From: Anaerocolumna sp.
Lineage (GTDB): Bacteria > Bacillota > Clostridia > Lachnospirales > Lachnospiraceae
Direction of reading: 5' to 3'
DNA length: 51,531 bases
Assembly: GCA_029239975.1 (NCBI GenBank)
Contig: JARBTX010000022.1
Location: 1 to 51,531 of the forward strand
Part shown: one piece after another, positions 15,912 to 33,320 of the stretch
Layout: each line of letters starts with the position of its first letter
Position numbering within the stretch: the first letter of the stretch is position 1
Notes under the pieces: model-generated
What the model was told of the DNA's origin: nothing
What the model saw: only the letters and a program-made list of their open reading frames with translations
The model's database searches: none
Program-made: the position numbers and the translations under genes

Positions 15912-16077
15912 GATAATTTCTTACAATATACCAAATAAAATGACATACAATTGACAAACAAATTGAATAAATTTAAAGAAAAGACTAAGGTGTCTTTACA
16001 ATTCAACCGATAAATATAATAGAATAAATTATGCAAAAGAGAAAACATGGAAGAGTAGTATGGCAGGGAGGTCACAA

Positions 16078-19000
16078 ATGAAATTAAATCTTAAAAAATG
16101 TAGTTTTGGGATAGCAAGTTTTCTAGTCCTATTATTAATAGGAATTTGGGGATATTTTCGCGTATATGCAGCAGATGCTACATATTGGTTCAACTATAAC
16201 TCAAAAGTAATTTCTGCAGGAGAAGAAATAGAACTAAAATCCGAAGAAGATTTCTTATTAGTTGAAAGTGCAAGTGGTATTGGGGTAGCAGATACAATAG
16301 AGTGGAAATCCTCTGCAGAGGATGTTGTGTCCCTGACTAAGGATACTACATACCCAATGCGTGTGAAATTAACACGTAATGGACCAGGTTATTCAACAAT
16401 CACAGCGTTAGTAACAAAAGATGGTAAAGTTTATACTTTAAGCTGTAAAGTAAAAGTAGACTTTGTAATCGATGATACACTAGCTACTAGTGAACCGGGA
16501 TTTAGTGAGGTTACAGCGGCTGGAGCAAAAGCGTTAGTATTAAACGTAGGTGATACTAATTTTCAAGTTCGTTTAAAATATACGAATAACTATCACGTAA
16601 GTATTGGTAACCCTGCAGTGTCATGGAAAACAAATGACGATAAGATTGTGACAGTTGATAAGGACGGTAAAATAACCGCTGTTGGTGCGGGTATTACAAC
16701 CATTGATGTAACAACGAATCAGATGTCAAGTAGTGCAGGAGTTATAACGAAGAGTTTTACAGTAATCGTTAATCCTAAGGCACTTAACCCTGCAACAAGT
16801 GCGTATGAATCACAGTTTACTATGACAAGCAGTGCTTCTACCATTAATATTGATGCGAATACAACAGACGCATCTAAATTAGTATGGAAGATTTATGACA
16901 GTGATAATAAATTGATTTTACCTACTGATACGAGCAAACTTGAATATACTGTTAGTACAATTAGTGGCAGAACACAGATATTCAATCCCAAAGCAGGTAC
17001 TTATTATATTTATGCTTACGTAAATGAAACTTACGCTAAGGATCCTTTACCGAAAGTAAAATATATAAAAATAACATTGGTTGTCCCTTTAAAAGTATCT
17101 GATACCAATATCGTTATGAATGTTGGTAATACTTATGACATCATAAAGAATACCAATATACCATCTCCAGATAATTTTAATTTTATAGCTCTTGATGAAA
17201 ATGGTAATATTGATAATACCATTGCAGATGTAGATGCTAACGGTGTTATAAAAGCTATTAGTAAAGGTGTTGCTAAAATTGCTATTACGGATACAACTGG
17301 ACAATACTCTAGTATTCCATCAATAACAGTTACAGTAATTGATGGTCTTTCTCTGAACTTTTCTACCGCTACTATATATACGTCCAGTACAATAAAATTA
17401 ACTGCATTAACAACGGATAATACAAGAGTTGTGGAATGGAGTTCAAGTGATCCAACAATTGCAACTGTAGACAAAGGATTAGTAACAGGTATTAAAGAAG
17501 GTGTGGTAACGATAACTGCCACTCAAACAATTAATGGTGTAAAAAAGACAGCAACTTGTAAGATTAGAGTACAGCAATCTGTTGATAAAATTACCATTTC
17601 ACCAGATACTGTTTTATTAAATAAAAATGAATTTAAAACATTAAAAGCAACGATAGAACCATCTGGCTTAAATAATGTTTCTCTTAAGTGGGTGAGCTCT
17701 AATACAAATATAGTTCGTATTTCAGATCCAGGAGATGTAACAGCTACCATACAAGGTGTAAATGCAGGTACTGCTGTAATATCTGCTATCAATCAAGATA
17801 ATATAGTAGTTGGATATTGCCAGGTAACAGTAAAAGAAAGTGTTATAGGAATTACACTTTCTGAATCCAATGTTAATATTTCAATGGCTAAGAAGAGTTT
17901 CCAACTTAAAGCAATTGTATCTCCTGATACAGCAACCATTAAAACAGTTACATGGAAATCAACAAATACAAAGGTTGCAACAGTTAGTACCGATGGTGTT
18001 GTTACTCTTGTTGGACCAGGTACAGCTACTATCATAGCAACTTCTGATGACAATCCACTAATATCCGCGTACTGTAATGTAACTGTAGAGGTACCAGCTG
18101 CATCAATTAAACTTGATGATACAACAAAAGTTATGTATGTTGGTGAGAGTGCTAGATTGGGATATTTAATAATGCCAACTAATGTAACAGATAAATCGGT
18201 TACATGGAGTTCTAGTAATAGCTCTGTTGTAAGTGTTGATTCTTCTGGTTTGGTAAAAGCAGTAACAGCTGGACAAGCTATTATTACGATTAAAAATGCA
18301 GATGGAATGCTATCTTCTAGTTGTACAATCACAGTAAAGCAAGAGGCAACTGGTATAACACTAGATGTAAAAGATTTAGAAATTGAAGTAGGTAAATCAT
18401 ATACAATTAAAACAACGGTTACTCCGGCTAATAGTACTGATGTTGCAATTGCATGGGAATCAACAAATACTACAGTTGCAACCGTTGATGGAAATGGTAA
18501 AGTAACTGGTGTATCTGCTGGTAAAGCGATTATTATTGCGAAAATAAAATCAGGTGTAGTATATTGTAATGTTACAGTAAAACAACCTGCTACCGGACTT
18601 AAATTAAATTATGAAGAAAAAACAATTGTAAAAGGTGAAAAATTTAAACTAAAAGCTACTATAGTGCCAACTAGTGCCGCAAGTGATGTTAGTGTTACAT
18701 GGAAGAGTTCAAAAACTTCTGTTGCTACAATCAGTTCTAATGGTACCGTAACAGCAATAAAAGGTGGTACAACAGTAATCACATGTAAAACATCCGATGG
18801 CAAGTACACAGAGATTTGCGTTGTTACTGTAGTTGAGCGAGTAACAAGTGTAAAGATAATCAGTAGTTATAAACTAGGATTAGGCAAAAGTTACACCATT
18901 AAAGCAACTGTTAAAACCAACGCTGCTACAAATCCTACCCTTAAGTGGACTTCAAGCAATAAAAAAGTTGCAACCGTTGATTCAAAAGGTAAAGTAACTG

Positions 19001-19806
19001 CAAGATCATTAGGATATGCAACGATTACTGCTACTGCCCAAGATGGAAGTAATGTTGAAGCAGAATGTGTTGTAAGAGTGGTAAAAGCAGTTTCTTCTAT
19101 TTCTTTAAATAGAACATCGTTAACTACTGTTGTAGGAAGAACATATACACTGAAAGCTACAGTTAAACCAAGTAATGCAACTTACAAATCAGTTTCCTGG
19201 AGTTCAAGTGATAAGAATATCGCATTGGTGGACTCTAATGGTACAATTACTGCATTAAAAGAAGGAACTGTAACAATTACTGCGAAAGCAAAAGATAGTA
19301 GTGGAAAAATAGCAACCTGTTTTGTTATAGTTCAACCAAGAACACCTGCAAGTAGTGTTACAATCATAGATCAAGATATTACTATGGTGGTTGGAGAAAC
19401 CTTAATCTTACAAAAAGCCATCAATCCGGTTAATGCTACCGATCGATTTGTATGGGAAACAGATAATAATACAGTTGCAAAAGTTGATCGTTCTTCCGGT
19501 AAAGTTACTGCTTTAAGACCAGGTATCGCTAATATTACAATTATGACGGAATCTGGTAAAACAGCAACGGCTAAGATAACAGTAGTCGGGTTGAATACAA
19601 CAAATTTAGAGCTTGAAGTCTATTCAACATATCGTCTGTCTGTTATTGGTATAACAAAAGATATTACTTGGGATGTTGATGATAGTAGTATTGCTACGGT
19701 AAGTAATGGATTAGTAACAACAAGACGAGAAGGAACTACCACTATAACTGCTATAGTAAATGGTAGAAGACTGACCTGTCGATTAAAAGTTGTTAAAATT
19801 AGATAG
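16078..19806 (+). CDS. Large secreted protein of tandem Ig-like (Big_2) domains
   Basis: A 1242-residue exported protein. I chose ATG 16078 because GGGAGG lies seven bases upstream and the product then starts with a classic signal peptide (MKLNLKKCSFGIASFLVLLL, cleavage likely after VYAA). The rest is about 14 Ig-like modules with the Big_2 signature W.S.....A.V...G.V......G...I, for example VTWKSTNTKVATVSTDGVVT and LKWTSSNKKVATVDSKGKVT. Early modules are more diverged than late ones. There is no LPxTG motif, S-layer homology domain or catalytic domain; the protein ends RLTCRLKVVKIR inside a module. A surface or matrix adhesin-like structural role is the likely inference. It is flanked by diguanylate cyclase and chemosensory genes and followed by a strong terminator. 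Confidence 0.92.
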   Translation: MKLNLKKCSFGIASFLVLLLIGIWGYFRVYAADATYWFNYNSKVISAGEEIELKSEEDFLLVESASGIGVADTIEWKSSAEDVVSLTKDTTYPMRVKLTRNGPGYSTITALVTKDGKVYTLSCKVKVDFVIDDTLATSEPGFSEVTAAGAKALVLNVGDTNFQVRLKYTNNYHVSIGNPAVSWKTNDDKIVTVDKDGKITAVGAGITTIDVTTNQMSSSAGVITKSFTVIVNPKALNPATSAYESQFTMTSSASTINIDANTTDASKLVWKIYDSDNKLILPTDTSKLEYTVSTISGRTQIFNPKAGTYYIYAYVNETYAKDPLPKVKYIKITLVVPLKVSDTNIVMNVGNTYDIIKNTNIPSPDNFNFIALDENGNIDNTIADVDANGVIKAISKGVAKIAITDTTGQYSSIPSITVTVIDGLSLNFSTATIYTSSTIKLTALTTDNTRVVEWSSSDPTIATVDKGLVTGIKEGVVTITATQTINGVKKTATCKIRVQQSVDKITISPDTVLLNKNEFKTLKATIEPSGLNNVSLKWVSSNTNIVRISDPGDVTATIQGVNAGTAVISAINQDNIVVGYCQVTVKESVIGITLSESNVNISMAKKSFQLKAIVSPDTATIKTVTWKSTNTKVATVSTDGVVTLVGPGTATIIATSDDNPLISAYCNVTVEVPAASIKLDDTTKVMYVGESARLGYLIMPTNVTDKSVTWSSSNSSVVSVDSSGLVKAVTAGQAIITIKNADGMLSSSCTITVKQEATGITLDVKDLEIEVGKSYTIKTTVTPANSTDVAIAWESTNTTVATVDGNGKVTGVSAGKAIIIAKIKSGVVYCNVTVKQPATGLKLNYEEKTIVKGEKFKLKATIVPTSAASDVSVTWKSSKTSVATISSNGTVTAIKGGTTVITCKTSDGKYTEICVVTVVERVTSVKIISSYKLGLGKSYTIKATVKTNAATNPTLKWTSSNKKVATVDSKGKVTARSLGYATITATAQDGSNVEAECVVRVVKAVSSISLNRTSLTTVVGRTYTLKATVKPSNATYKSVSWSSSDKNIALVDSNGTITALKEGTVTITAKAKDSSGKIATCFVIVQPRTPASSVTIIDQDITMVVGETLILQKAINPVNATDRFVWETDNNTVAKVDRSSGKVTALRPGIANITIMTESGKTATAKITVVGLNTTNLELEVYSTYRLSVIGITKDITWDVDDSSIATVSNGLVTTRREGTTTITAIVNGRRLTCRLKVVKIR

Positions 19807-19833: not shown

Positions 19834-19877
19834 AAAACCGATTATTTGATTGATATCAATCAAATAATCGGTTTTTT
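19834..19877 (+). terminator. Terminator after the Big_2 gene
   Basis: A perfect 21-bp palindrome (19834-19854 with 19855-19875) is followed by a T run, six T in total from 19872. It forms a strong hairpin with a minimal loop. Confidence 0.88.
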
Positions 19878-20116: not shown

Positions 20117-20145
20117 TTGACATTATTTTGTTGTAAATGTATAAT
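20117..20145 (+). promoter_or_regulatory. Perfect consensus sigma-A promoter of the chemosensory operon
   Basis: TTGACA (20117-20122), exactly 17 bases, then TATAAT (20140-20145), all matching consensus, about 46 bases before the tetR-family ATG at 20192. A promoter this strong is normally held in check by a repressor, and the first gene encodes a TetR-type protein. Confidence 0.85.
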
Positions 20146-20191
20146 ATAAACAAGAATGTATGTAAGTGTTTACTACTCAAGGTGGTGAAAA

Positions 20192-20776
20192 ATGGAAGAA
20201 AATATATTGCACAGAAAAGAACGAATCATAATAACGACTATAGATATCATCGATGAAATTGGAATTTTAAGTTTATCAACCAGAGAAATCGCCAGAAGAC
20301 AGGGAGTCTCAGAGGCAACACTCTTTCGGCATTTTAAAAGTAAAAATGATATATTAATAGCTGTTTTAGACTATTTTTCTCAATTTGACACAGACATTTA
20401 TCAATCAACAATTTTAAAAAAACTAAAACCTATCGATGCTGTTACATATTATGTTACTGCTAATACTGAGTATTACGAAAATTATCCGGCTATAACATCA
20501 ATCATGCAGATATTTGATGTGTTAAAAGGGGAACAAGGATTAACGGATAAAATAAATGAAATTAAAAATAGAAGCACACATTATCTTAAGTTATTAATTG
20601 AAGAAGCGCAATTAGTTGGTGATTTACGTGTTGAAATAGATAGTGAGATCTTAGCTCTAATGATTTCAGGGTTATGTCGGGAAATATGCCTAACATGGAG
20701 ATTAAGTGGAAAGAATTTTTCACTAAAAGAGAAAACATTAATAGCCCTAAAACTGTTGTTAGAAAAGAGTAGGTAG
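20192..20776 (+). CDS. TetR/AcrR family transcriptional regulator
   Basis: A 194-residue protein with an N-terminal TetR helix-turn-helix (about residues 8-55). The recognition region reads LSTREIARRQGVSEATLFRH FKSKNDIL. The C-terminal ligand or dimerisation half is variable, as usual for the family, so no inducer can be predicted. AAGGTGGTG lies 6 bases before the ATG. It is the first gene after a perfect sigma-A promoter and lies 33 bp before cheY, so it is probably co-transcribed with the chemosensory genes and likely autoregulates the operon (inference). A TetR regulator at the head of a che operon is unusual. Confidence 0.9.
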   Translation: MEENILHRKERIIITTIDIIDEIGILSLSTREIARRQGVSEATLFRHFKSKNDILIAVLDYFSQFDTDIYQSTILKKLKPIDAVTYYVTANTEYYENYPAITSIMQIFDVLKGEQGLTDKINEIKNRSTHYLKLLIEEAQLVGDLRVEIDSEILALMISGLCREICLTWRLSGKNFSLKEKTLIALKLLLEKSR

Positions 20777-20809
20777 TTTTAGGAGAATATAAAAGGGAGA
20801 TTACATAAA

Positions 20810-21169
20810 ATGAAAAGAGTGTTAATAGTAGATGATGCATCTTTTATACGATTAGCAGTTAAAACTTTACTTGAAAAAAATGGATTTGAAGTAGTAGGTG
20901 AAGCGGCGAATGGCGACGAAGGTATAAGGCTTTATAATCAATTACAACCTGATATTGTTACTATGGATATTACAATGCCAGGGATGTCTGGTATTGAAAC
21001 ATTGAAACAAATATTACAATTAGATCCAAAAGCCAAAGTACTTATGTTATCAGCCATGGGACAAGAAGCATTGGTTCGAGATGCAATTATAGCTGGAGCA
21101 AAATCCTTTATAGTTAAGCCGTATAAAGATGAACAATTAATTCAAACATTAAACAAAATATTAGGGTAA
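20810..21169 (+). CDS. cheY: CheY-like single-domain response regulator
   Basis: A 119-residue receiver domain only. All key residues are present: acidic pair D8-D9, phosphoacceptor D53 in TMDITMPGMSG, S81 as the switch Ser/Thr, and K103 in VKPY. It receives phosphate from CheA. AAAGGGAG lies about ten bases before the ATG. The gene sits 33 bp after tetR and 36 bp before cheA. No flagellar motor genes are in the window, so its output target is unclear. Confidence 0.93.
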   Translation: MKRVLIVDDASFIRLAVKTLLEKNGFEVVGEAANGDEGIRLYNQLQPDIVTMDITMPGMSGIETLKQILQLDPKAKVLMLSAMGQEALVRDAIIAGAKSFIVKPYKDEQLIQTLNKILG

Positions 21170-21205
21170 GTACTAAAGTGTATCATTTATCAGAGGGGAG
21201 ATTGG

Positions 21206-23311
21206 ATGTCAAATCAATTTACAAACGAACCATTGCTAGATATGTTTATATTTGAGTCAACACAACTTCTTGAACAATTAGAGCAAACAATACTATCAAA
21301 TGAAAAAGAAAGTGGATATTCTCAAAGTGTTATCCATGAAATATTTCGTATTATGCATACCATAAAGGGTTCATCAGCAATGATGTTATATAATGAAATA
21401 TCACAACTTGCTCACACAATAGAAGATTTATTCTTTTATTTACGTGAAGAAATCCCAAATGATGTTGATTATAATATGATATCGGATTTGGTACTAGAAA
21501 GTGTTGATTTTATTAAAATTGAACTAGAGAAAATAAAAAATAATGAAACGGCAAATGGAGATGCCAGTGAAATTATTAATAATTTGAAAAACTATCTACA
21601 CGTTTTAAAGATAAATAACTTAAATACTAATATAGAACTAAAACAGGATTTGATTTGTGAAAAATCAGACAAACCAGACAATGATAAGAAAGAAACAAAA
21701 CAGTATTATATTGGGCAGCAAAAGAAAGAAGCAAAAAATTATGCCTATCTTTACAAAGCAACCATATTTTTTGAAGAAGGTTGTGAAATGGAGAATATAC
21801 GGGCATATACCATTTTACATAATCTAAAAGATATTACGGATGAGATTAACTATATTCCAGAAGATATAATAGATAGCGATGACAGCATTGATGTTATTCG
21901 ACGTGAAGGATTTCAAATATATCTAAAGACAAATAAAAATTATGAAGAAATGAATCAATTCTTTATGCAGACAATTTTTTTAAAAAGTCTGGACTTAATA
22001 AAATTAGAAAATGATGATGAGTACAAGCAATTTATTCAAAGGGAGCAAGAGATTACATTAATAAAAGAAAAGTCAATTAAAATACCTGTTGTACCTAATA
22101 ATGAAAAAGAGCAAAATCTAAGAGAAAGTTCAAGTTTTACAACACAACAGAGTATTATAAGTGTTAGTGTTTCGAAGTTAGATCGCTTGATGGACCTAAT
22201 GGGAGAAATGGTTATAGCGGAAGCTATGGTGATACAAAATCCAGATTTAGTTGGATTAGAACTTGATAACTTTGGGAAAGCAGCCAGACAGCTTAATAAA
22301 ATAACAACCGAAATTCAAGATATGGTAATGGCAATACGAATGGTACAACTGTCAGCAACTTTTCAAAAAATGAATCGAATTGTTCGTGATATGTGTAAGA
22401 AACTGAAAAAAGAAGTATCTTTAAATATCATAGGGGAAGAAACTGAGGTTGATAAAAATATTATTGAGCACATTTCAGATCCTATCATGCATTTGGTTAG
22501 AAATGCCATAGACCATGGAATCGAATCTGCTGATGAAAGGCAACGAAATGGTAAGCAAAAATCTGGGACAATAACGTTAGAAGCAAAGAATGCAGGAAAC
22601 GAAGTCATTGTTATAGTAAAAGACGATGGTAAAGGGTTAAGTAAAGATAAAATTCTTAAAAAAGCAATGGATAATAATTTGCTTTATAAAGATGAACATG
22701 AAATGTCAGATAAAGAAATATTTAACATGATTTTATTACCAGGATTTTCAACAAAGGATACCGTAACAGAATTTTCTGGACGTGGAGTCGGAATGGATGT
22801 GGTTACGAAGAATATTGAAACCATAGGTGGTTCTTTAACCGTTGATAGTGTTGATGGTAAAGGAACAACTATTACACTAAAAATTCCACTTACCTTAGCA
22901 ATTATTGATGGTATGAATATAAAAGTAGGTAATTCTTGTTATACAATACCAACTACTTCAATAAAAGAATCTTTCAGGCCAACCATGAACAATATAATTA
23001 AAGATCCAGATGATAACGAAATGATTATGGTAAGAGGCAGATGTTTTCCAGTCATGCGTTTACATGAAAGATATAAAGTTGAAACGTTAGTCACGGATTT
23101 AACGAAAGGCATTATTATCATGGTAGAACAAGATGAGAAGACTTTATGTATCTTTGCAGATGAATTGGTAGGACAACAACAAGTAGTTGTAAAAGCGTTA
23201 CCAGATTATATCAGTAATTTCAAAAAAATAAAGGGATTAGCAGGCTGTACACTTTTAGGAGATGGCAGTATCAGTTTAATTCTTGACATTGCAGGATTAA
23301 TCAATTATTAA
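21206..23311 (+). CDS. cheA: Chemotaxis histidine kinase CheA
   Basis: A 701-residue kinase with full CheA layout: Hpt (P1, residues about 5-110, phosphorylated His51 in HTIKGSS), a P2-like response-regulator docking domain (about 175-285), dimerisation P3 (about 315-380), an ATPase domain P4 (about 385-555, N box HLVRNAIDHGIE from H429, and GRGVGMDVV) and a CheW-like P5 (about 560-700). It autophosphorylates on P1 and passes phosphate to CheY and CheB in the receptor-CheW array. AGGGGAG is upstream of ATG 21206. Nothing essential looks missing. Confidence 0.96.
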   Translation: MSNQFTNEPLLDMFIFESTQLLEQLEQTILSNEKESGYSQSVIHEIFRIMHTIKGSSAMMLYNEISQLAHTIEDLFFYLREEIPNDVDYNMISDLVLESVDFIKIELEKIKNNETANGDASEIINNLKNYLHVLKINNLNTNIELKQDLICEKSDKPDNDKKETKQYYIGQQKKEAKNYAYLYKATIFFEEGCEMENIRAYTILHNLKDITDEINYIPEDIIDSDDSIDVIRREGFQIYLKTNKNYEEMNQFFMQTIFLKSLDLIKLENDDEYKQFIQREQEITLIKEKSIKIPVVPNNEKEQNLRESSSFTTQQSIISVSVSKLDRLMDLMGEMVIAEAMVIQNPDLVGLELDNFGKAARQLNKITTEIQDMVMAIRMVQLSATFQKMNRIVRDMCKKLKKEVSLNIIGEETEVDKNIIEHISDPIMHLVRNAIDHGIESADERQRNGKQKSGTITLEAKNAGNEVIVIVKDDGKGLSKDKILKKAMDNNLLYKDEHEMSDKEIFNMILLPGFSTKDTVTEFSGRGVGMDVVTKNIETIGGSLTVDSVDGKGTTITLKIPLTLAIIDGMNIKVGNSCYTIPTTSIKESFRPTMNNIIKDPDDNEMIMVRGRCFPVMRLHERYKVETLVTDLTKGIIIMVEQDEKTLCIFADELVGQQQVVVKALPDYISNFKKIKGLAGCTLLGDGSISLILDIAGLINY

Positions 23312-23380
23312 ACTAATAATAATTTTGCAAAGTTTATTAAGAGCAATGAAACGATGATTTTAAGTGGGAGGTATTAAAGC

Positions 23381-23875
23381 ATGAGCGAGTTAATAAAAGA
23401 TGCTACAGAAATGGAGGAAGACACGCAGAAAGGGAGGTACCTTACCTTTACATTAGAAAAAGAAAGTTATGGAATAGAAATTCAATATGTCACAGAGATA
23501 ATTGGAATTCAAGCTATTACTCAGGTTCCAGAATTGCCTAATTATGTAAAAGGTATCATTAATTTAAGGGGAAAAATTATTCCTGTTATGGATATAAGAC
23601 TTCGTTTCAAAAAGGAGCCAATACCATATAATGATAGAACTTGCGTTATTGTAGTTGATATAAAAAATATATCCATCGGTCTTATTGTGGATAGTGTTTC
23701 TGAAGTTCTTACTATTCCTGAACAAGAAGTGGTAGAACCACCTAAGATGAATAATGGAGTCCAAAATCGATATATCAAAAATATTGGAAAAGTTGGTAAT
23801 GAGGTAAAATTGCTATTGGATTGTGAAAAATTATTAGCAGACGATGACATTGAAGAAATCAAAGAAGTACTATAA
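23381..23875 (+). CDS. cheW: Chemotaxis coupling protein CheW
   Basis: A 164-residue CheW domain with an acidic N-terminal extension of about 18 residues. The family segment VPELPNYVKGIINLRGKIIP is intact. It links the receptor signalling tip to CheA P5 in the cytoplasmic array. GGGAGG lies about nine bases before ATG 23381. It sits between cheA and the receptor gene, 22 bp before the latter. Confidence 0.95.
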   Translation: MSELIKDATEMEEDTQKGRYLTFTLEKESYGIEIQYVTEIIGIQAITQVPELPNYVKGIINLRGKIIPVMDIRLRFKKEPIPYNDRTCVIVVDIKNISIGLIVDSVSEVLTIPEQEVVEPPKMNNGVQNRYIKNIGKVGNEVKLLLDCEKLLADDDIEEIKEVL

Positions 23876-23897
23876 TCAATTATCAGGGGGATAAATT

Positions 23898-25619
23898 ATG
23901 AAATGGTTTAATAATTTAAAAATACGTACAAAGTTAATATTATGTTTTATAATTCTAGCTATATTTACAAGCATTGTAGGTATTGTGGGTATTAATAGTA
24001 TGAATAACATTAATAAGGCAAGTCAAGGTATGTATTATACAAACTTTGTACCAGCAATGAATCTTTCAAAAATACAAACTGCACTAGAAGAAGTAAGAGC
24101 AATTCATTTATCTGCAATATATGAAAGAGATGCAGAAACGTTTCAAGAAAAAATGGATCAAATAAATAATTTAGTTCAACAAACGAATCAATTGTTAGGT
24201 GATTATAGCGCTACAATTGAAGGGAATGATGAAGCAAAAGTACTTTATGATGCTCTTATGGAAACATTATTAGCTTATCGTACGGTTCGAAATGAAAACC
24301 TAGATATGGTAAAGATGGAACAATATGATAAAGCTTTAGCAGAATCAGAAATCGTGTCTGACACAAGAATAAAAGTAGATGAAGCACTTCAAAAATTAGT
24401 AGATTATAATACATATTACTCAGAGAGTACACTTAAAAATAATACAAAAGAATTTAGTACTCAAACGATATTGATGATAGTTGTAATTATTGTAGGTATT
24501 ACTTTAGCGATCGCATTTGGTTTAATCATTGCAACTATTATGAGTAAACAGTTGAATAAATTAGTAGGCGTTGCAGATAAAATTGCCGATGGAGACTTAG
24601 ATGTTGTTATTACCAATAACTCAAAAGATGAAGTTGGTGTTCTCGCAAATGCACTTAGAAAGATGACAAAGAATATCAATGAGGTTATGACTAATATTAA
24701 TTCAGCAGCTGAGCAAGTAGCTTCTGGTTCAAGACAATTATCTGGTTCTAGCATGGCTTTATCACAAGGTGCAACTGAACAAGCTAGTTCTATTGAAGAG
24801 TTAACTGCATCCTTAGAAGAAATTTCATCTCAAACTAAGATGAATGCTCAAAATGCAAATCAAGCAAATGAATTAGCAGAAGTCGCAAAAACCAATGCAG
24901 GAATTGGTAATAGTCAGATGAAAGAAATGTTATATGCAATGGAAGAAATTAATAATTCATCTTCTAATATTTCCAAAATAATTAAAGTTATTGATGATAT
25001 CGCGTTCCAAACCAATATTTTAGCCCTTAACGCAGCAGTAGAAGCAGCAAGAGCTGGTCAACATGGTAAGGGATTTGCTGTAGTAGCTGAAGAAGTAAGA
25101 AATTTAGCAGCCAGATCTGCAAATGCAGCAAAAGAAACTACAGATATGATTGAAGGGTCCATTAAGAAAGTAGAAGGTGGTACTAAGATTGCTAATGAAA
25201 CAGCAGTAGCCCTTAATAAAATAGTTGAGGATGTTACAAAAGCTGCAAATCTAGTAGGGGAAATAGCCATTGCATCTAACGAACAAGCTATGGGTATTGA
25301 ACAGATAAATCAAGGTATTATGCAGATTTCAGAAGTTATTCAAACCAATTCTGCAACATCAGAAGAAAGTGCTGCAGCAAGTGAAGAACTTTCCAGTCAG
25401 GCAATTATTTTAAGAGAAATGGTTAGTAAATTTAACTTAAAACAAAATACCAATGGATATAATAGTTTAGATGAGATTAATCCAGAAGTACTAAAAATGT
25501 TAGAGAAAATGTCTTCAAAGAAAAATAAAAATGATATTCAAAGTTATGAACATACAAATGAAATTAAAAATACAAAACATAAAATAGATTTAAGTGATAA
25601 TGAATTTGGCAAATATTAA
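23898..25619 (+). CDS. Methyl-accepting chemotaxis receptor
   Basis: A 573-residue transmembrane receptor. Membrane helices at about 11-33 and 188-212 enclose a four-helix-bundle ligand domain (about 35-187). A HAMP domain follows (about 213-265), then a long coiled-coil methylation and signalling region with the tip IDDIAFQTNILALNAAVEAA and later EVRNLAARSANAAKETTDMI. It is the only receptor in the cluster and presumably the dedicated input; the ligand is not predictable. GGGGG lies seven bases before the ATG. The C-terminus has no CheR-tethering NWETF-like pentapeptide. A terminator follows. Confidence 0.95.
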   Translation: MKWFNNLKIRTKLILCFIILAIFTSIVGIVGINSMNNINKASQGMYYTNFVPAMNLSKIQTALEEVRAIHLSAIYERDAETFQEKMDQINNLVQQTNQLLGDYSATIEGNDEAKVLYDALMETLLAYRTVRNENLDMVKMEQYDKALAESEIVSDTRIKVDEALQKLVDYNTYYSESTLKNNTKEFSTQTILMIVVIIVGITLAIAFGLIIATIMSKQLNKLVGVADKIADGDLDVVITNNSKDEVGVLANALRKMTKNINEVMTNINSAAEQVASGSRQLSGSSMALSQGATEQASSIEELTASLEEISSQTKMNAQNANQANELAEVAKTNAGIGNSQMKEMLYAMEEINNSSSNISKIIKVIDDIAFQTNILALNAAVEAARAGQHGKGFAVVAEEVRNLAARSANAAKETTDMIEGSIKKVEGGTKIANETAVALNKIVEDVTKAANLVGEIAIASNEQAMGIEQINQGIMQISEVIQTNSATSEESAAASEELSSQAIILREMVSKFNLKQNTNGYNSLDEINPEVLKMLEKMSSKKNKNDIQSYEHTNEIKNTKHKIDLSDNEFGKY

Positions 25620-25651
25620 TTAAAAATCTGTTTATTTTAAATGCTTTAGTG

Positions 25652-25681
25652 AAAGGGGTCTGTTAATAAACGACCCCTTTA
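25652..25681 (+). terminator. Terminator or attenuator between mcp and cheR
   Basis: AAAGGGGTC (25652-25660) pairs perfectly with GACCCCTTT (25672-25680) around an 11-nt loop. The T tract is short (TTT at the end of the arm, then AT), so partial readthrough into cheR is likely. Confidence 0.65.
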
Positions 25682-25724
25682 TGTACATTAATAATAATTC
25701 GATATAGTTTAGGTAGGTATCAAC

Positions 25725-26540
25725 TTGATTACTATAACAAAAAATGAATTTAAACAGTTGGCAGAATATGTTCACTCTCATTATGGAATTTATCTAAAAG
25801 AAGAGAAGCAAGCTTTGGTTACCGGACGGTTACAGAATGTTCTAATAGAACTAAATTTAAAAAATTTCACAGAATATTATAATTATATAATTTCTGATAA
25901 AAGTGGGAAAGCCGCTACTTTATTAATGAATAAAATTACTACAAACCATACTTTTTTTATGAGAGAATCGGATCACTTTGATTATTTTAAGAATCATGTA
26001 TTGCCTTATTTAAAGAATTCAGTTAAAAATAAGGATTTAAGAATATGGAGTGCAGGGTGTTCATCGGGGGAAGAACCTTATACGTTAGCTATGATACTTG
26101 ATGAATACTTTGGTAGTGAAAAAAGCTTCTGGGATACAAAAGTTTTAGCTACAGATATTTCTTTAAATGTATTAGAACGAGCTATAAATGGTATATATAC
26201 CAATGAAGATATATCCGTTTTACCTGCGCTTTGGAGAAATAAATACTTTACAAGGAAAGATGATAAAAATTCAGTGATCATAGATAGGATAAAGCATGAA
26301 GTGATTTTTCGTAAGTTTAATCTTACCTGTGAGATTTTCCCTTTTCGAAAGAAATTTCATGTAATATTTTGCAGGAATGTAATGATTTATTTTGATATGC
26401 AAACAAAAGAAAAGCTGGTGAATGCTTTTTATGATGCCCTAGAATATGGGGGTTATCTATTTATAGGTCATTCAGAAGCTCTCAACCGTGATGAATCTAA
26501 GTTTAAATATGTAATGCCTTCTGTATACCGAAAGGAATGA
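25725..26540 (+). CDS. cheR: Chemotaxis protein methyltransferase CheR
   Basis: A 271-residue enzyme that methylates receptor glutamates with S-adenosylmethionine. An N-terminal all-helical domain (about 1-75, KNEFKQLAEYVHSHYGIYLK) precedes the Rossmann domain with the SAM loop LRIWSAGCSSGEEPYTLAMI. CRNVMIYFD and GYLFIGHSEAL are also typical. Translation starts at TTG 25725 with AGGTAGG upstream; no ATG fits the conserved N-terminus. The stop is only 6 bp before the cheB start, so the two are translationally coupled. The pair provides adaptation for the receptor array. Confidence 0.94.
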   Translation: MITITKNEFKQLAEYVHSHYGIYLKEEKQALVTGRLQNVLIELNLKNFTEYYNYIISDKSGKAATLLMNKITTNHTFFMRESDHFDYFKNHVLPYLKNSVKNKDLRIWSAGCSSGEEPYTLAMILDEYFGSEKSFWDTKVLATDISLNVLERAINGIYTNEDISVLPALWRNKYFTRKDDKNSVIIDRIKHEVIFRKFNLTCEIFPFRKKFHVIFCRNVMIYFDMQTKEKLVNAFYDALEYGGYLFIGHSEALNRDESKFKYVMPSVYRKE

Positions 26541-26546
26541 GTTTAA

Positions 26547-27578
26547 GTGGAATTAAAAAGAAAGATAAGAGTCTTAGTAGTAGACGATAGTTTAGTATTT
26601 CGTGAAGTTTTGGCAAGGGGACTATCCAGTGACGATAGTATAGAAGTGGTTGCAACAGCAAATGATCCATACGATGCAAGGGATAAAATACTGAAATATA
26701 AACCAGATGTTATGACTTGTGATGTTGAAATGCCTAAAATGAATGGGATAGAATTTATACGAAGATTAATACCACAGTATCCTTTACCGATAATTGTAGT
26801 TAGTACTATAAGTGGTGCTGTATTTGATGCAATGAATAATGGAGCAATTGATTTTGTTGCGAAACCAAATGTTAGTTCTGCTAAAAGCGTTGAACAGTTT
26901 ATAAATGAAATGATTATGAAAATTAAAATTGCGTCTGCCGCAAACGTTCAGCTTGGGGAAGATAAACTTGAAATGAGTACTTTAAAAGAAATTTCAACTA
27001 CCCATTCCCAGCATTTAATCGCTATTGGTGCATCCACTGGCGGCACAGAGGCAATTTATCAGATATTAAAAACGTTACCTAGTTGTATACCTGGCATTGT
27101 TGTGGTTCAACATATTCCACCTGTCTTTTCTAAAATGCTAGCAGATAGATTAAATACATCCACGTCTTTTCAGGTAAAGGAAGCTTCTACAGGCGACTAT
27201 ATTGAGAAAGGGAAAGTATACATTGCACCTGGGGATCATCATATGAAGATTAAAAAAATCGGAGATAGATACCGAGTAGAATGTTTTCATGGAGAAAAAG
27301 TAAATGGTCATTGTCCATCTGTGGATGTGCTATTTGAATCAGTTGCGAAAGAAGCTGGAAGCAATGCTATTGGTGTAATATTAACCGGTATGGGTTATGA
27401 TGGAGCAAAGGGTTTACTGTCAATGAGAAAAAACGGTGCAAAAACAATCGGACAAGATGAAAAAACATCAGTTGTTTATGGAATGCCGAAAGTAGCTTTT
27501 AATATTGGTGCAGTGGAAAAGCAAACTTCTTTAGATAATATTGCCAATACAATATATGCTACGTTAACTCCAAGGTAA
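26547..27578 (+). CDS. cheB: Receptor methylesterase CheB
   Basis: A 343-residue protein: receiver domain (about 8-125; D13, D14 and phosphoacceptor D59 in TCDVEMPKMNG) plus a methylesterase domain (about 150-340). The catalytic Ser is in GASTGGTEA, His in VVQHIPP and Asp in TGMGYDGAKG. It removes methyl groups from, or deamidates, receptor glutamates when phosphorylated by CheA. It starts at GTG 26547, 6 bp after cheR, with AAAGGAATGAG upstream inside the cheR end. All catalytic residues are present. Confidence 0.95.
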   Translation: MELKRKIRVLVVDDSLVFREVLARGLSSDDSIEVVATANDPYDARDKILKYKPDVMTCDVEMPKMNGIEFIRRLIPQYPLPIIVVSTISGAVFDAMNNGAIDFVAKPNVSSAKSVEQFINEMIMKIKIASAANVQLGEDKLEMSTLKEISTTHSQHLIAIGASTGGTEAIYQILKTLPSCIPGIVVVQHIPPVFSKMLADRLNTSTSFQVKEASTGDYIEKGKVYIAPGDHHMKIKKIGDRYRVECFHGEKVNGHCPSVDVLFESVAKEAGSNAIGVILTGMGYDGAKGLLSMRKNGAKTIGQDEKTSVVYGMPKVAFNIGAVEKQTSLDNIANTIYATLTPR

Positions 27579-27631
27579 GAAAGTAGCAGGTAATACAAAG
27601 GGATGTTTCTTTAACAACATGGAGGTATTAT

Positions 27632-30600
27632 ATGCATGAAAAAGTAGCAATAATGGAGAATATGGAACTTGCTTATGCAACTTTGTCTTGTATGGGAGAC
27701 GGAGTAATCTCAACAGACTTATATGGAAAAATAATATATATGAATCGCATAGCAGAAGAAATAAGTGGTTGGGGAATAGAAGAAGTTCTTGGTAATGATT
27801 TTGATTCCATCTTTGAATTTATAAATATAGAAAAAAATGAAAATCTGAAAAGTCCAATTAAGTTTGTATTAGAAAATGGATTACCAAGAGGGCTTGAAAA
27901 TAATACAATTATAAAATCAAAAGATCATAAGTGCAAATATGTTTCAGCCACTTGCTCTCCTGTAAAAGCTGTGGATTCTTCTATTATAGGTGTTGTCGTC
28001 GTGTTACGTGATATTACAAGAATTAAGACATTAGAGATTGAACATCTCAATGAAGAACACAATTTAACGACATTATTTAATCATGCACCAGTTGGTATGA
28101 TAATACTGGATAAAAAAAATAAAATAATTCAGGTAAATGATTCTGCATTACATTTTGTAAATAAGAGCAGAGAACAAGTGTTAGGTAATCAATTTGGCAA
28201 TGGTTTTAATTGTATGGCAGCTCTTCAAGTCGAAAAGGGTTGTGGATACGGGCTAAATTGTAACTTATGTGAACTAAGCAAAGCTGTAAGATTAGCTATT
28301 GATGAAGGAAAAACCACTAGTAATATCGAATTGATAAATCCCTTTAATGCAGAAAATGATAAAGATAAACTATGGTTTTGGGGTAGTATTTCACCAATCA
28401 TAATTAATGGTCATAGACATTCAGTAGTGACTCTTATGGATATTACCAAACGAAAAGAAGCAGAAGAAGTACTAAAGCGATATCAAATGCTATCAGAAAA
28501 TACGAATGATATTATGCTTTTCTATGATACAGATGGATGGATTATTGATGCAAATTCAGCAGCTATAAAGGCATATGGTTATACATATGAAGAATTATGT
28601 AACTTAAATATAAATTGTATAAGAGATAATAGAAATCTTACAACCGAACACATTATGTTAACTGAAACTACCGGACAATTTTATGAAGCAATACATAAAA
28701 GAAAAAACGGTAGCATGTTCCATGTTGAAATAAGTGCTCAAGTATCGAATAAAGGGGATAAACCAGTTTATTTAAGTGTTATTCGTGATATCTCAGAACG
28801 TAAAAGAGCGGAGAGAAGTATTTTTGAGAGTCAAGCGAAATATCGTTCTCTTTTTATGAATATGAGTAGTGGTTATGCATATTACAATATGAAATATAAT
28901 GACAAGCATATTCCAGTAGATTTAGAATTTTATGAAATCAATGAAGCGTTTGAAAAATATTTTAAAGTAACCAAGAAATATGTTCTGGGTAAAGCATTTT
29001 CAGATATTTTCTCTGAAATTAATGAAAATGTATTTCAGTATATAACCAAAAACTTATACAAATTATATCGTGGCGAAAGCTTAAATATTAATGAGTATTA
29101 TTATGTTCAGTATGATAAATGGTTCTCTATATCAATATATAGTCCGAAAGAAAAAGACATTGTAATGATTATCACAGATATTACCTATTTAAAACATCAA
29201 GAAAATAAGTTGATTGCTGCTAAAGAGGTTGCTGAATCTGCGAACAAAGCAAAAAGTGAATTTTTGGCTAATATGAGTCATGAAATCCGTACACCAATTA
29301 ATGGAATGGTAGGAATGATAGATTTAACGTTGTTAACAGATTTAACAGAAGAACAAATAGATAATTTAATCACAGCAAAGGCTTGTGCGAGTTCTTTATT
29401 AAATATTATTAATGATGTTCTTGATTTTTCCAAACTAGAAGCAGGTAAAATGTCAATTGAATATGTTAATTTTAATGTGATTGAATTAATTGAAGAAATT
29501 TTAAAGACTCATTCACCTAGGGTAAATGAAAAAGGTTTGGAATTTTTCTATACATTTTCATCTTCTATACCAAAATATCTATATGGTGACCCAAATAGAT
29601 TACGTCAAATATTGAATAACTTAATTAGCAATGCAATGAAATTTACAGTAAGCGGTAGTATCAGCCTTTCAGTAAAAAAGATTTCAAAAAGTAGTGAAGG
29701 AAATGAAATTGAATTTCGTGTGACAGATACTGGAATTGGTATTGCGCCAGAAGATACAGGAAGACTCTTTAAAAGTTTCAGTCAAATAGAATATTCGTAT
29801 ACTAAAAAATTTGGCGGTACCGGTTTAGGACTAGTTATTTCAAAACAACTTGTGGAGATGATGGGTGGAAGAATAGGAGTAGAGAGTAAAAAAGGGTATG
29901 GAAGCTCATTCTATTTTACTTTAAATTTTAGGGAAGGAAACAAAATTGATAATACAAAGAAATTTATACCAAATATAATAAAAACAAAGAATCCACTAAA
30001 AATTTTACTAGTAGAAGACGATAAAATTAATCAGAAGGTTATTTTAAAGATGCTTAATGAAAAGGGGCATGATGTTGAAGTTGCATGTAATGGCAGTGAA
30101 GCTTTAAGTTTATTCTGCATTGGAAAATATGATGTTATTCTGATGGATATTCAAATGCCTGAAATGAATGGTATTGATGCGATGATTGAAATACGTAAAC
30201 AAGAAGCAGGAAGAAAAAGAACTCCAATTATAGCGTTAACTGCTTATGCATTAAATGGCGACAAGGAGAGATTTCTTTCCATGGGAATGGATGAGTATAT
30301 TCCAAAACCTATTCAAATGAATGAACTATTTTATATATTAGAGAATATTAGAAAAGCTCCTAATATTAGTCAAGATGCATCACCAGAAGGAGTTAGGCTA
30401 GATGACCAAGGAGAAGTTATATTCGTTAATAAAACTAAGAAAACACCAAATGTACATTTATCTGTATTTATTATGAATATAAAAAGTAATGTCTCTAAAT
30501 TAGAATTAGCTGCAGAAAATGACGATTTAATGAATATAGAAAACATAGCCCACGAGATTAAACTTATGGCTGGAGAAATTGAGGCAAATGATATTAAGGA

Positions 30601-30745
30601 TCTTGCGTTTAAAGTTGAACTTGCAGCTAGACGATGTAATTTAACAGAGGCAGTTGCCTACATTAAACAAATCAAGTCTGCTATCAATATTTACAAAGAA
30701 TCAAATATATTAGGAGGAAAGGGAAATGAGAATACTAATAGCTGA
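27632..30745 (+). CDS. Hybrid sensor histidine kinase (four PAS-HisKA-HATPase-REC-Hpt)
   Basis: A 1037-residue soluble kinase with no membrane helices. Four PAS-type sensor regions (about 8-132, 145-280, 283-395, 398-525) precede HisKA (His550 in NMSHEIRTPINGM), an ATPase domain (about 655-770, ending FGGTGLGLVISKQL), a receiver (phosphoacceptor D839 in LMDIQMPEMNG) and a C-terminal Hpt (His974 in AHEIKLMAGE). It is a complete internal phosphorelay. PAS 2 carries four spaced cysteines (C194, C204, C210, C213), suggesting a metal or Fe-S site. GGAGG precedes the ATG. Its gene overlaps the next response regulator by 20 bp, which is the likely final receiver. Confidence 0.94.
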   Translation: MHEKVAIMENMELAYATLSCMGDGVISTDLYGKIIYMNRIAEEISGWGIEEVLGNDFDSIFEFINIEKNENLKSPIKFVLENGLPRGLENNTIIKSKDHKCKYVSATCSPVKAVDSSIIGVVVVLRDITRIKTLEIEHLNEEHNLTTLFNHAPVGMIILDKKNKIIQVNDSALHFVNKSREQVLGNQFGNGFNCMAALQVEKGCGYGLNCNLCELSKAVRLAIDEGKTTSNIELINPFNAENDKDKLWFWGSISPIIINGHRHSVVTLMDITKRKEAEEVLKRYQMLSENTNDIMLFYDTDGWIIDANSAAIKAYGYTYEELCNLNINCIRDNRNLTTEHIMLTETTGQFYEAIHKRKNGSMFHVEISAQVSNKGDKPVYLSVIRDISERKRAERSIFESQAKYRSLFMNMSSGYAYYNMKYNDKHIPVDLEFYEINEAFEKYFKVTKKYVLGKAFSDIFSEINENVFQYITKNLYKLYRGESLNINEYYYVQYDKWFSISIYSPKEKDIVMIITDITYLKHQENKLIAAKEVAESANKAKSEFLANMSHEIRTPINGMVGMIDLTLLTDLTEEQIDNLITAKACASSLLNIINDVLDFSKLEAGKMSIEYVNFNVIELIEEILKTHSPRVNEKGLEFFYTFSSSIPKYLYGDPNRLRQILNNLISNAMKFTVSGSISLSVKKISKSSEGNEIEFRVTDTGIGIAPEDTGRLFKSFSQIEYSYTKKFGGTGLGLVISKQLVEMMGGRIGVESKKGYGSSFYFTLNFREGNKIDNTKKFIPNIIKTKNPLKILLVEDDKINQKVILKMLNEKGHDVEVACNGSEALSLFCIGKYDVILMDIQMPEMNGIDAMIEIRKQEAGRKRTPIIALTAYALNGDKERFLSMGMDEYIPKPIQMNELFYILENIRKAPNISQDASPEGVRLDDQGEVIFVNKTKKTPNVHLSVFIMNIKSNVSKLELAAENDDLMNIENIAHEIKLMAGEIEANDIKDLAFKVELAARRCNLTEAVAYIKQIKSAINIYKESNILGGKGNENTNS

Positions 30746-31127
30746 AGATGATTTAATCAGCAGAAAATTTTTATTTAAGTTCTTATCAAAATATGGGGAA
30801 TGTGATTTAGTAGTAGATGGACTTGAGACTTTGGATGCATTTTTAATAGCTTCAAAAGATAATAATCCATATGACTTAATTTGTCTTGACATTATGATGC
30901 CAAAAGTAGATGGTGTAAAAGTACTAAAATATATTAGAGATTTGGAGACACAAAAAGGGCTTCTTCCAGAAAAACGCTCTAAAGTGATTATGACTACAGC
31001 TTTAGCAGAAACGCAATTTGTGCAGAATGCGTTTGAAATAGGATGTGATGCTTATGCAGCAAAACCAATAGATACAGAAAAGCTAATAGAGGTAATGCAA
31101 AAATTAGGATTAATAACGGAACGTTAA
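30726..31127 (+). CDS. Stand-alone response regulator downstream of the hybrid kinase
   Basis: A 133-residue receiver domain with no output domain. Acidic pair D8-D9 (IAEDDL), phosphoacceptor D55 in CLDIMMPKVDG, Thr in MTTALA and Lys in AAKPID are present. Its ribosome binding site (GGAGGAAAGGGAA) and ATG lie inside the 3' end of the kinase gene, a 20-bp overlap, so the two are translationally coupled and are probably phosphorelay partners (Hpt to receiver). The lack of an effector domain means it acts by protein contact. A strong terminator follows, closing the cluster. Confidence 0.93.
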   Translation: MRILIAEDDLISRKFLFKFLSKYGECDLVVDGLETLDAFLIASKDNNPYDLICLDIMMPKVDGVKVLKYIRDLETQKGLLPEKRSKVIMTTALAETQFVQNAFEIGCDAYAAKPIDTEKLIEVMQKLGLITER

Positions 31128-31182
31128 TGATAAGAAAAAAGAACAAAGGGACCAGATTTAAGATATATTTATTAATTTCAAT

Positions 31183-31219
31183 GGATTAGGTGTAAAATAT
31201 TTTACACCTAATCCTTATT
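31183..31219 (+). terminator. Terminator closing the chemosensory/kinase cluster
   Basis: A perfect 16-bp palindrome (31183-31198 with 31199-31214) is followed by TTATTT. The spacing of 56 bp after the response-regulator stop fits the end of the transcript. Confidence 0.82.
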
Positions 31220-31508: not shown

Positions 31509-33191
31509 TTGTTACTTAATTTACATGTTAAAAACTTTGCTATTATTGATGAAGTAGATGTTACTTTTAAAGATAACCTTAATATTCTAACTGGTGAAAC
31601 AGGTGCCGGTAAGTCAATTATTATAGGTTCTATTAACGTTGCTCTTGGGGGTAAAATATCGAAAGACATAATTCGTAAAGGTGCAGATTATGCTTTAGTA
31701 GAATTATTATTCCATATTGATGATGGGCAAGTTATTAAGGAATTAGAAGCACTCGATGTTCCAGTTGAAGATGGACAAGTCATTATTAGTAGAAGAATAA
31801 TGAATGGAAAAAGTATAAGCAAAGTGAATGGTGAAACAGTAACAACAAGTGTCTTAAAAGAAATAGCAGGTTTGTTAATTGATATTCATGGCCAACATGA
31901 GCATCAATCATTATTGTATAAAGAAAAACATTTAGATATTGTTGATCGTTTTTCAAAAGATAGTATTGGTGATGTAAAAAAACAGTTAGAATCTGAATAT
32001 AGAGAATACATATCAGTCAAAAATAAATTAGACGAACTTAAAATAGATGATGATAAACGATTAAGAGAAATGTCTTTTTTAGAATATGAAGTGAATGAAA
32101 TTAAAAATGCTAATTTAAAAATTGGTGAAGATGATATACTAAATGCAGAATATAAACGATTATCCAATGCTAAAACGATAGCAGAAGGACTGAGTAATAT
32201 ATATGATTTAATGAGCTATCAATCCATCGGTTCTGCAGGAGATATTATAGGACGAGCTGTAAAGCAAATTATGAAGCTTGAAGAATATGATAAGTCAATA
32301 ACCGGACTTTCATCACAACTTAATGATATCGAAGCATTATTAAATGATTTTAATCGTGATTTATCAGAATATCTGTCCGACCTTAATAATAGTGAAGAAG
32401 ATTTTGCAGCTACGGAACAAAGATTAGATTTAATCAATCATCTAAAATCAAAATATGGTAATAGCATAGATGAAATATTAAATTATTTAAAACTTGGAGA
32501 AGAAAAATTAGATCAATATAGTAATTACGAGCAGACAATAGATAACTTAACAAAACAATTGAATAAATCAGAAATAAAATTGAATGAACTTAGCGAGCAG
32601 TTATCTACTATTAGGCAAACGAAAGCGAAAGAATTAACTGAGAGAATGAAAGCTGCCTTAATTGATTTAAATTTCTTAGATGTGAGATTTGAAATGGTAT
32701 TCAAAAAGATTGGTCATTTTTCAAGTAATGGATTTGATGATGCTGAATTTTTGATTTCAACAAATCCTGGAGAAGAAATAAAACCGTTATCCAGAGTAGC
32801 TTCTGGTGGTGAGCTATCTCGTATCATGTTGGCTATTAAATCAGTATTAGCAGATAAAGATGAAATTGAAACACTAATATTCGATGAGATTGATGTTGGT
32901 GTAAGTGGCAGAACAGCACAAAAAGTTTCTGAGAAATTATCAATGATTGCAGGTAATCATCAAGTATTGTGCATCACTCATTTACCACAAATAGCTGCAA
33001 TGGCGGATTCTCATTATATAATTGAAAAATTGACAGATGGAATTTCTACACAAACATCCATACGTCTTTTAGATTCAGACGAGTCAATCGGAGAAATTGC
33101 TAGAATTCTCGGAGGTGCTGTAATTACTGATACTGTAATTAATAGTGCCAAAGAAATGAAAGAATTGGCAAAAACAACTAAAAAATTCTAG
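31509..33191 (+). CDS. recN: DNA repair protein RecN
   Basis: A 560-residue SMC-like ATPase that acts early in double-strand break repair. Walker A is GETGAGKS (G29-S36). Long coiled coils (about 155-205 and 275-375) flank a hinge-like region. The ABC signature is ASGGELSRIM (about 431-440) and Walker B is TLIFDEIDVG. Translation starts at TTG 31509 with AGGAGG upstream; the conserved MLLNLHVKNFAIID start supports this. In many clostridia recN directly follows argR and precedes spoIVB; here the spoIVB-spo0A side is kept but argR is about 30.7 kb away. A terminator follows. Confidence 0.96.
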   Translation: MLLNLHVKNFAIIDEVDVTFKDNLNILTGETGAGKSIIIGSINVALGGKISKDIIRKGADYALVELLFHIDDGQVIKELEALDVPVEDGQVIISRRIMNGKSISKVNGETVTTSVLKEIAGLLIDIHGQHEHQSLLYKEKHLDIVDRFSKDSIGDVKKQLESEYREYISVKNKLDELKIDDDKRLREMSFLEYEVNEIKNANLKIGEDDILNAEYKRLSNAKTIAEGLSNIYDLMSYQSIGSAGDIIGRAVKQIMKLEEYDKSITGLSSQLNDIEALLNDFNRDLSEYLSDLNNSEEDFAATEQRLDLINHLKSKYGNSIDEILNYLKLGEEKLDQYSNYEQTIDNLTKQLNKSEIKLNELSEQLSTIRQTKAKELTERMKAALIDLNFLDVRFEMVFKKIGHFSSNGFDDAEFLISTNPGEEIKPLSRVASGGELSRIMLAIKSVLADKDEIETLIFDEIDVGVSGRTAQKVSEKLSMIAGNHQVLCITHLPQIAAMADSHYIIEKLTDGISTQTSIRLLDSDESIGEIARILGGAVITDTVINSAKEMKELAKTTKKF

Positions 33192-33232
33192 TTTGAAAAG
33201 TTAATTTAATACGTATACTATCAAAAGATTAA

Positions 33233-33266
33233 AAAGGATATACACGCTTGTGTATATCTTTTTTTA
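33233..33266 (+). terminator. Terminator after recN
   Basis: GATATACAC (33237-33245) pairs perfectly with GTGTATATC (33250-33258) with a 4-nt loop. It is followed by eight T. Confidence 0.88.
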
Positions 33267-33320
33267 TCGTATAGGAAATGAGATAAAGTGCGTAATTTCG
33301 CATGGAATGGAGTTTAACAT

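Follow-up and report, generated by a model that had tools for sequence, protein, structure and literature searches.

A compact chemosensory operon with a hybrid kinase and a second receiver

The stretch of DNA analyzed here, which we call the window, covers positions 1-51,531 (51,531 nucleotides) of contig JARBTX010000022.1 of Anaerocolumna sp. (GCA_029239975.1). On its + strand lie nine co-directional genes that join a compact chemosensory system to a hybrid histidine kinase and a stand-alone receiver, bracketed by two terminators and with a consensus promoter in front. The 5' terminator (19834-19875, + strand), a 19-pair stem with a T tail, follows the upstream Big_2 gene, and the 3' terminator (31183-31214, + strand) is a 14-pair stem with a T tail; within the operon, the scan of the + strand detected only weak, five-pair terminator-like sites, at 25902, 26436 and 26437. 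The promoter, TTGACA-17-TATAAT (20117-20145, + strand), agrees with the consensus at 12 of 12 positions, as does no other of the 76 promoter-like sites that a 12-kb scan gave, the runners-up reaching 10/12; about 0.03 exact matches would be expected by chance at an assumed A+T content of 66%. Of 11 tetR-led relatives, four (L041, L098, L101, L102) have this exact promoter ahead of tetR.

Family matches to the window proteins give the order tetR-cheY-cheA-cheW-mcp-cheR-cheB-hybrid kinase (hyHK)-receiver (RR2), and both this order and the perfect promoter are as described in an earlier note made from the sequence of this DNA. The first gene, tetR (20192-20776), encodes a TetR-type DNA-binding domain (TetR_N, PF00440 over the cut-off) with a YsiA-like C-terminal domain. 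It is followed by cheY (20810-21169), a single receiver domain; cheA (21206-23311), with the arrangement P1-P2-P3-P4-P5 and without a receiver domain; cheW (23381-23875), which matches the CheW family; mcp (23898-25619), a receptor with a 4HB sensor, HAMP and a signaling hairpin of 36H length; cheR (25725-26540), with a TTG start; and cheB (26547-27578), with a GTG start, encoding a receiver and a methylesterase. The window thus holds a complete chemosensory core, that is, a CheA with P1, P3, P4 and P5, a CheW and a receptor with an MCP signaling domain. Behind this core lie hyHK (27632-30745), comprising PAS repeats, HisKA, HATPase, a receiver and an HPt-like domain, and RR2 (30726-31127), the gene of which overlaps that of the kinase by 20 bases. 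As the earlier note had it, the family scan yielded no flagellar, cheC, cheD or cheX match among the cluster proteins, and flagellar families have no match among the 30 window proteins scanned. Among the best 25 NCBIfam matches per protein, only CheB subfamily models and a PAS domain model exceed the cut-off.

A second chemosensory system with a shorter receptor

In the genome that contains the window (completeness 92%, contamination 6.5%), the CheW domain is matched five times, on three contigs. Alongside a CheW, contig C92 carries a CheA 31-32% identical to that of the window and the terminal part of FlhA, and close relatives of this CheA are found in other genomes of the genus. These observations support the view that the window cluster is a second chemosensory system and not the sole copy, so the first half of the condition on which the earlier note would have abandoned its reading, che genes that are the only copies and are required for flagellar swimming, does not apply. 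A weak, partial second FHIPEP (FlhA-like) match lies outside the main flagellar locus (G000:C127:24069-24593).

The single receptor that had been claimed is a correct description of the cluster and not of the genome, where the MCP domain is matched 40 times, counting the window receptor; 39 of these matches exceed the family cut-off, and some are fragments. Apart from the window receptor, we read 35 frames whose tip is recognizable. From HAMP to tip, with length taken for the N-terminal arm only, the window receptor spans 133 residues versus 161 in all 15 of the 35 that could be measured by motif; by alignment, 27 of the 35 are exactly 28 residues longer than the window receptor and none is equal to it, and when the comparison was repeated with pairwise alignments, the difference was +28 in 26 of 34 receptors and 0 in one. 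Twenty-eight residues correspond to four heptads per arm, which we take to be the step between the receptor classes known as 36H and 44H. With its N-terminal arm four heptads below 44H, the window receptor falls within 36H, a class also named in PMC7184735. Relative to the enterobacterial receptor models NF011615 and NF011622, its net length difference over the matched parts is nil. A difference in arm length of this kind makes mixed arrays unlikely, and the sequences suggest that the window receptor belongs to an array separate from the other receptors of the genome. In a subset of the cluster receptors of relatives (L040, L044, L049, L117 and others), the stretch from HAMP to tip measures 172 residues instead of 133 (+39), perhaps owing to an extra HAMP-like segment.

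Recurrence of the cluster and two roles of its CheA

In 41 genomes, the window's own included, the long CheA matches fall mostly into two groups, at >40% and 30-36% identity. Across 392 genomes of the order, window-type CheA (E <= 1e-100) is present in 145 and RR2 (E <= 1e-30) in 47, in 36 of which RR2 lies <12 kb from window-type CheA. Gene orders were read at 20 loci found by CheA (19 relatives and the genome's own flagellar region), at 20 found by RR2, and in 49 of a named set of 80 to which RR2 had led. Recurrence of the order, a check proposed in the earlier note, is seen in further genomes, including those of other families. The 37 window-like clusters contain tetR in 12 cases (with 3 more weak matches), cheY in 27, cheW in 34, mcp in 33, cheR in 23, cheB in 24, hyHK in 23, RR2 in 26 and cheD in 8; since RR2 served to select many of these loci, and contig ends truncate several, the figures for RR2 and for completeness are not rates. 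Given the eight clusters with a cheD match, the absence of cheD from the window is a local feature.

The presence of RR2 separates two settings of the same CheA type. At least two CheA (counted by the H-kinase_dim domain) are found in each of the 40 genomes that combine the window type with RR2, versus 6 of the 105 with this CheA and no RR2. No second CheA was found in the other 99, of which 96 have FlhA; the window-type CheA, as the only CheA found in these 96 genomes, presumably runs flagella there. At 25 loci of this sole type, hyHK, RR2 and tetR are absent throughout, and an mcp is nearby in five. It appears, from these gene contents, that RR2 marks an accessory role of window-type CheA. 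What weighs against taking this pattern at face value is that genome counts are not independent of kinship, which the Fisher value of 1e-29 ignores.

A non-flagellar function is not borne out by the same counts: FlhA is found in 45 of 47 RR2 genomes versus 192 of 345 without RR2, and the only CheA found in the 96 FlhA genomes is of the window type. Of the alternative-function array proposed in the earlier note, the second system beside a flagellar one stands; on the non-flagellar role the observations point both ways, with no flagellar genes seen nearby and a separate flagellar system on one side and these FlhA counts on the other. In a CheA tree built by a quick method, the window CheA groups within a clade of 80 rows that does not include the C92-type CheA; the direction of change between accessory and sole roles is not fixed by this tree, in which the RR2 label needs nine changes, weak inner branches number 27 of 86, L150, L159, L161 and L056 form long branches, and truncated loci give rise to some spurious labels (L041, L042).

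A putative TetR operator

In relatives, a palindrome, GTAAGTAA-N4-TTACTTAC, is located downstream of the -10 box and upstream of tetR. Five of the 11 tetR-led relatives (L097, L098, L100, L103, L118) agree with it at 14-16 of 16 positions, and for each of the five, none of 300 shuffles is as good. The putative operator of the window, GTATGTAAGTGTTTACTACT (20158-20177, + strand), agrees with this consensus at 12 of 16 positions and ranks third among 103,024 positions when the matrix is built without the window. In one genome (G122), the only perfect match is the site upstream of tetR, and in another (G373), a second site, with two mismatches, precedes the second cheA-cheW-mcp. The simplest reading of the palindrome, namely, that TetR represses its own operon, gains support from this footprint.

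Several observations weigh against such a reading. The other six tetR-led relatives (L041, L042, L101, L102, L121, L145) score 9-11/16, not clearly above shuffles; the 12/16 of the window is reached by 11 of 300 shuffles, and two other sites in the window outscore it. In 14 clusters without a leading tetR, the best operator match is 9-12/16, with two of these (L045 and L105, the latter with a tetR at the cluster end) equaling the score of the window. No genome-wide regulon emerged either: consensus matches with at most two mismatches are at background in eight genomes (in that of the window, 7 versus 9 in the control) and do not include the site at 20158-20177. The tetR gene itself, found in 12 of 37 window-like clusters, is absent from all 21 gut-type and all 25 sole-CheA-type loci. 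The notion of TetR as a switch for the whole array, put forward in the earlier note, is backed by an operator-like palindrome that is strong in five relatives and weaker, at 12/16, in the window; as a feature of the family, tetR is not universal. A second operator-like palindrome (14/16) lies at 19699-19718, inside the end of the Big_2 gene; the corresponding place in G010 has no operator match among the matches listed.

The hybrid kinase and its HPt-fold domain

In hyHK, PAS is recognized in at least three separate stretches, followed by HisKA, HATPase, a receiver and a weak Hpt match of 22.2 bits, under the Pfam cut-off of 24.6. The C-terminal domain, hyHK-C (30452-30742, + strand), is predicted to form a four-helix bundle (pLDDT 90.8) and has the HPt fold; its best PDB match is HptB (TM-score 0.80, root-mean-square deviation 0.9, Foldseek E 0.0087) and the second the HPt domain of YojN (TM-score 0.75), with all E-values >= 0.001. 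The kinase with four PAS domains, a receiver and Hpt of the initial description is therefore recovered in its receiver, its three or more PAS stretches and its predicted HPt fold, with the Hpt family match remaining below the cut-off. The best conserved part of hyHK-C is an AFKIELAxRR-like helix. Among 22 kinases, the HisKA histidine is present in 22 and the receiver aspartate in 21, the remaining one being a gap; the Hpt histidine is present in 14, the window included. Of 40 relatives, from which four canonical-looking Hpt matches, all with the histidine, were excluded, 15 keep the Hpt phospho-histidine and 25 lack it, and gut-type clusters keep it in 1 of 16. A classical kinase-receiver-Hpt relay is, consequently, not a rule of the family, and the phosphorelay envisaged earlier remains plausible for the window, where fold and histidine coincide, without extending to most relatives.

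The domain nevertheless tracks RR2. At E <= 1e-5, hyHK-C is found in 33 of 47 RR2 genomes versus none of 25 control genomes with window-type CheA and no RR2 (three of these show weak matches, 2e-4 to 6e-4), and in 21 of the 33, it lies <100 bp from RR2. Three RR2 genomes (G072, G258, G331) have the kinase domain without window-type CheA, and ten have RR2 and window-type CheA without a kinase-domain match at 1e-5. Three of these ten (G097, G220, G366) show weak kinase-domain matches, and at least G113 and G220 have a hybrid kinase beside RR2 (L109, L116), so that clear cases of CheA and RR2 without the kinase are few, which counts against the mechanism favored below. The clearest among the loci read is L112 (G068), where the cluster has cheA and RR2 but lacks a kinase and the whole genome gives no match to the kinase domain. 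G074, also considered as a kinase-free case, has a kinase domain elsewhere in the genome (C6:57993) and was not counted. In L114, the only gut-type kinase scanned, there is an HPt-like end and no receiver domain.

RR2 as a possible common output

Gut-type clusters have RR2 between cheB and cheA wherever both genes are on the contig, and cheY was not found in any of the 21. Taken with the tendency of RR2 to accompany both hyHK and CheA, the lack of cheY alongside RR2 can be read as RR2 being a shared output; RR2, considered in the earlier note to be the end of the kinase's own relay, looks like an output common to CheA and hyHK, to judge from gene content. Two facts speak against this: the gut-type loci were found through RR2, which is accordingly there by selection, and elsewhere RR2 stands by itself, at a distance from che genes. 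In L133, L138, L141 and L147, a relative of RR2 lies among conserved housekeeping-like genes, a second, non-chemosensory context recognized from translations read by eye. The idea that RR2 marks another effector system was dropped, the neighbors in these loci and in L149 and L158 being housekeeping-like by eye and no effector being named. Searches of RR2 against PHROGs and PDB sequences were uninformative.

A hint of the output comes from HD_5 (HD-GYP-like) proteins, which are encoded in 17 of 21 gut-type, 5 of 37 window-like and 1 of 25 sole-type loci, two of those in L114 carrying receiver domains. These genes hint at turnover of cyclic di-GMP (c-di-GMP) as a conceivable output; it weighs against this that no HD-GYP-like gene was found beside the window operon and that most cases come from one lineage.

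A proposed mechanism and its competitors

The computed results comprise two CheA systems in one genome, receptors of different length classes, a recurring gene order, an operator-like footprint in relatives, the linkage of RR2 to hyHK as well as to CheA, and an HPt fold with a variable histidine. The interpretation that we favor, with a probability of about one half, is that of an accessory, TetR-controlled chemosensory operon in which the array and the PAS kinase converge on RR2. TetR would repress the operon through the palindrome just downstream of the -10 box until released by a ligand. The short-hairpin (36H-like) receptor, CheW and CheA would then form an array apart from the 44H-like flagellar array, to be adapted by CheR and CheB, and phosphorylated CheA would pass its signal to CheY and, most likely, RR2. 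The PAS hybrid kinase, as a soluble sensor, would act on RR2 via its HPt-fold domain, by phosphotransfer in the window, where the histidine is present, and by docking in relatives without it. RR2 would sum signals from outside and inside the cell and act by protein contact, perhaps on c-di-GMP turnover and, hence, on the choice between swimming and staying. In this scheme, we infer all phosphotransfer and binding steps, as well as the ligands and output of the system and the soluble nature of hyHK, and it is from gene content that cross-talk between the chemosensory and kinase halves is deduced. A broader version, which we advance only tentatively, would add that the HPt-fold domain, through which the soluble PAS kinase reaches the RR2 that it shares with the array, has in most of the family turned into a pseudo-HPt domain that docks on the receiver after loss of the histidine, that TetR switches on the array as a whole, and that this CheA class moved between accessory and sole flagellar roles within one order of Clostridia, in parallel to the takeover by the gammaproteobacterial F7 system.

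The strongest competitor, somewhat unlikely in our estimate, is a second input to the flagella, whereby phosphorylated CheY from the array acts on the motor beside the other system and hyHK is a mere neighbor with RR2 as its partner. The excess of FlhA in RR2 genomes, the 96 FlhA genomes in which window-type CheA is the only one found and the retention of cheY in 27 of 37 window-like clusters all fit such an input. However, flagella and che genes tend to co-occur in any case (239 of the 392 genomes have CheA and 237 have FlhA), which alone could explain the association with FlhA; moreover, a separate flagellar system is present, the receptors differ in length class, the window proteins scanned include no flagellar family, and gut-type clusters have RR2 without cheY.

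Less likely still is a circuit like Che3 of Rhodospirillum centenum, in which CheA would phosphorylate the receiver of hyHK and thereby damp a kinase that is the sole feeder of RR2. For such a circuit there is a published precedent (PMC3868531); the near-invariance of the receiver aspartate and the HisKA histidine in hyHK is compatible with it, as are L101 and L102, which consist of cheA-cheW-mcp-kinase-RR2 without cheY, cheR and cheB. Yet the kinase of L114 has no receiver that CheA could address, while CheA and RR2 stay, and the cluster of L112 has CheA and RR2 yet lacks a kinase. Finally, a chance neighborhood, that is, co-transcription of a chemosensory operon with a functionally unrelated two-component pair, would account for the kinase-RR2 pair without window-type CheA in three genomes and for RR2 away from che genes, but is improbable given that operon and pair come together in many families, in differing orders, that RR2 and window-type CheA occur together only in genomes with at least two CheA, and that the terminator-like sites inside the operon are all weak.

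Genomic neighborhood

Directly upstream of the operon lies a gene for a Big_2 repeat protein of 1248 amino acids (16060-19806), relatives of which (54-56% identity) are found upstream of che genes in G005, G007, G010 and G008, so that a functional link between this protein and the operon is possible. In G008, the site that matches the window's (L045) has cheY-cheA only, with a fuller cluster elsewhere in the genome (L044). Within 10 kb upstream are two GGDEF genes (11206-12855 and 14773-15879), one with a sub-threshold dCache match and the other with GAF; as candidate outputs, they were set aside, being unmatched in the few kb beyond the Big_2 gene in L038, L039, L041 and L045. Downstream of the operon are recN-like, spoIVB and spo0A genes (31509-35939).

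Comparison with known systems

Among the titles listed, none describes this arrangement in Clostridia, a weak negative given that several listings stop at 20 titles and that subscription literature lies mostly outside the coverage. The gene-content variants at hand (with or without cheY, cheR and cheB, the kinase, tetR or the HPt histidine) make the sharing of an output by an array and a sensor kinase amenable to experiment. One point of reference is the flagellar chemotaxis system encoded on C92 of the same genome, presumably of the F1 type, which has CheA, CheW and CheB homologues in common with the window cluster. It differs in its divergent CheA (31-32% identity), its receptors of 44H length and the FlhA on the contig, and also in CheC- and CheD-like genes recognized by eye, the CheD-like one matching (by BLAST) the Pfam-confirmed CheD of L100. 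In the order HisKA-HATPase-receiver-Hpt, hyHK resembles kinases of the BarA/ArcB type; unlike in these, the NCBIfam models stay below the cut-off, the Hpt histidine is not conserved in the family, and the neighbor is a single-domain receiver.

In PMC7184735, the ancestral gammaproteobacterial F7 system is described as accessory to another flagellar system, with the type taking over the motor in other lineages. The window cluster shares with it a 36H receptor alongside cheY, cheA, cheW, cheR and cheB, and some relatives of the window also have cheD. It belongs, however, to another phylum, its receptor is of the 4HB membrane type as opposed to the Aer2-like PAS-HAMP receptor of F7, and it adds the hybrid kinase, RR2 and TetR, the likeness being one of gene content and receptor length. 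The Che3 system of R. centenum (CheA3, CheS3, CheY3), which controls cysts (PMC3868531), is, together with F7, the closest precedent: in both it and the window, a hybrid kinase and a stand-alone receiver accompany the chemosensory genes, giving two kinases and one single-domain output. In R. centenum, a receiver is part of CheA3 itself, and that of CheS3 is N-terminal (PMC3868531), whereas the window CheA has no receiver, that of hyHK is C-terminal and followed by the HPt-fold domain, and a tetR gene leads the operon.

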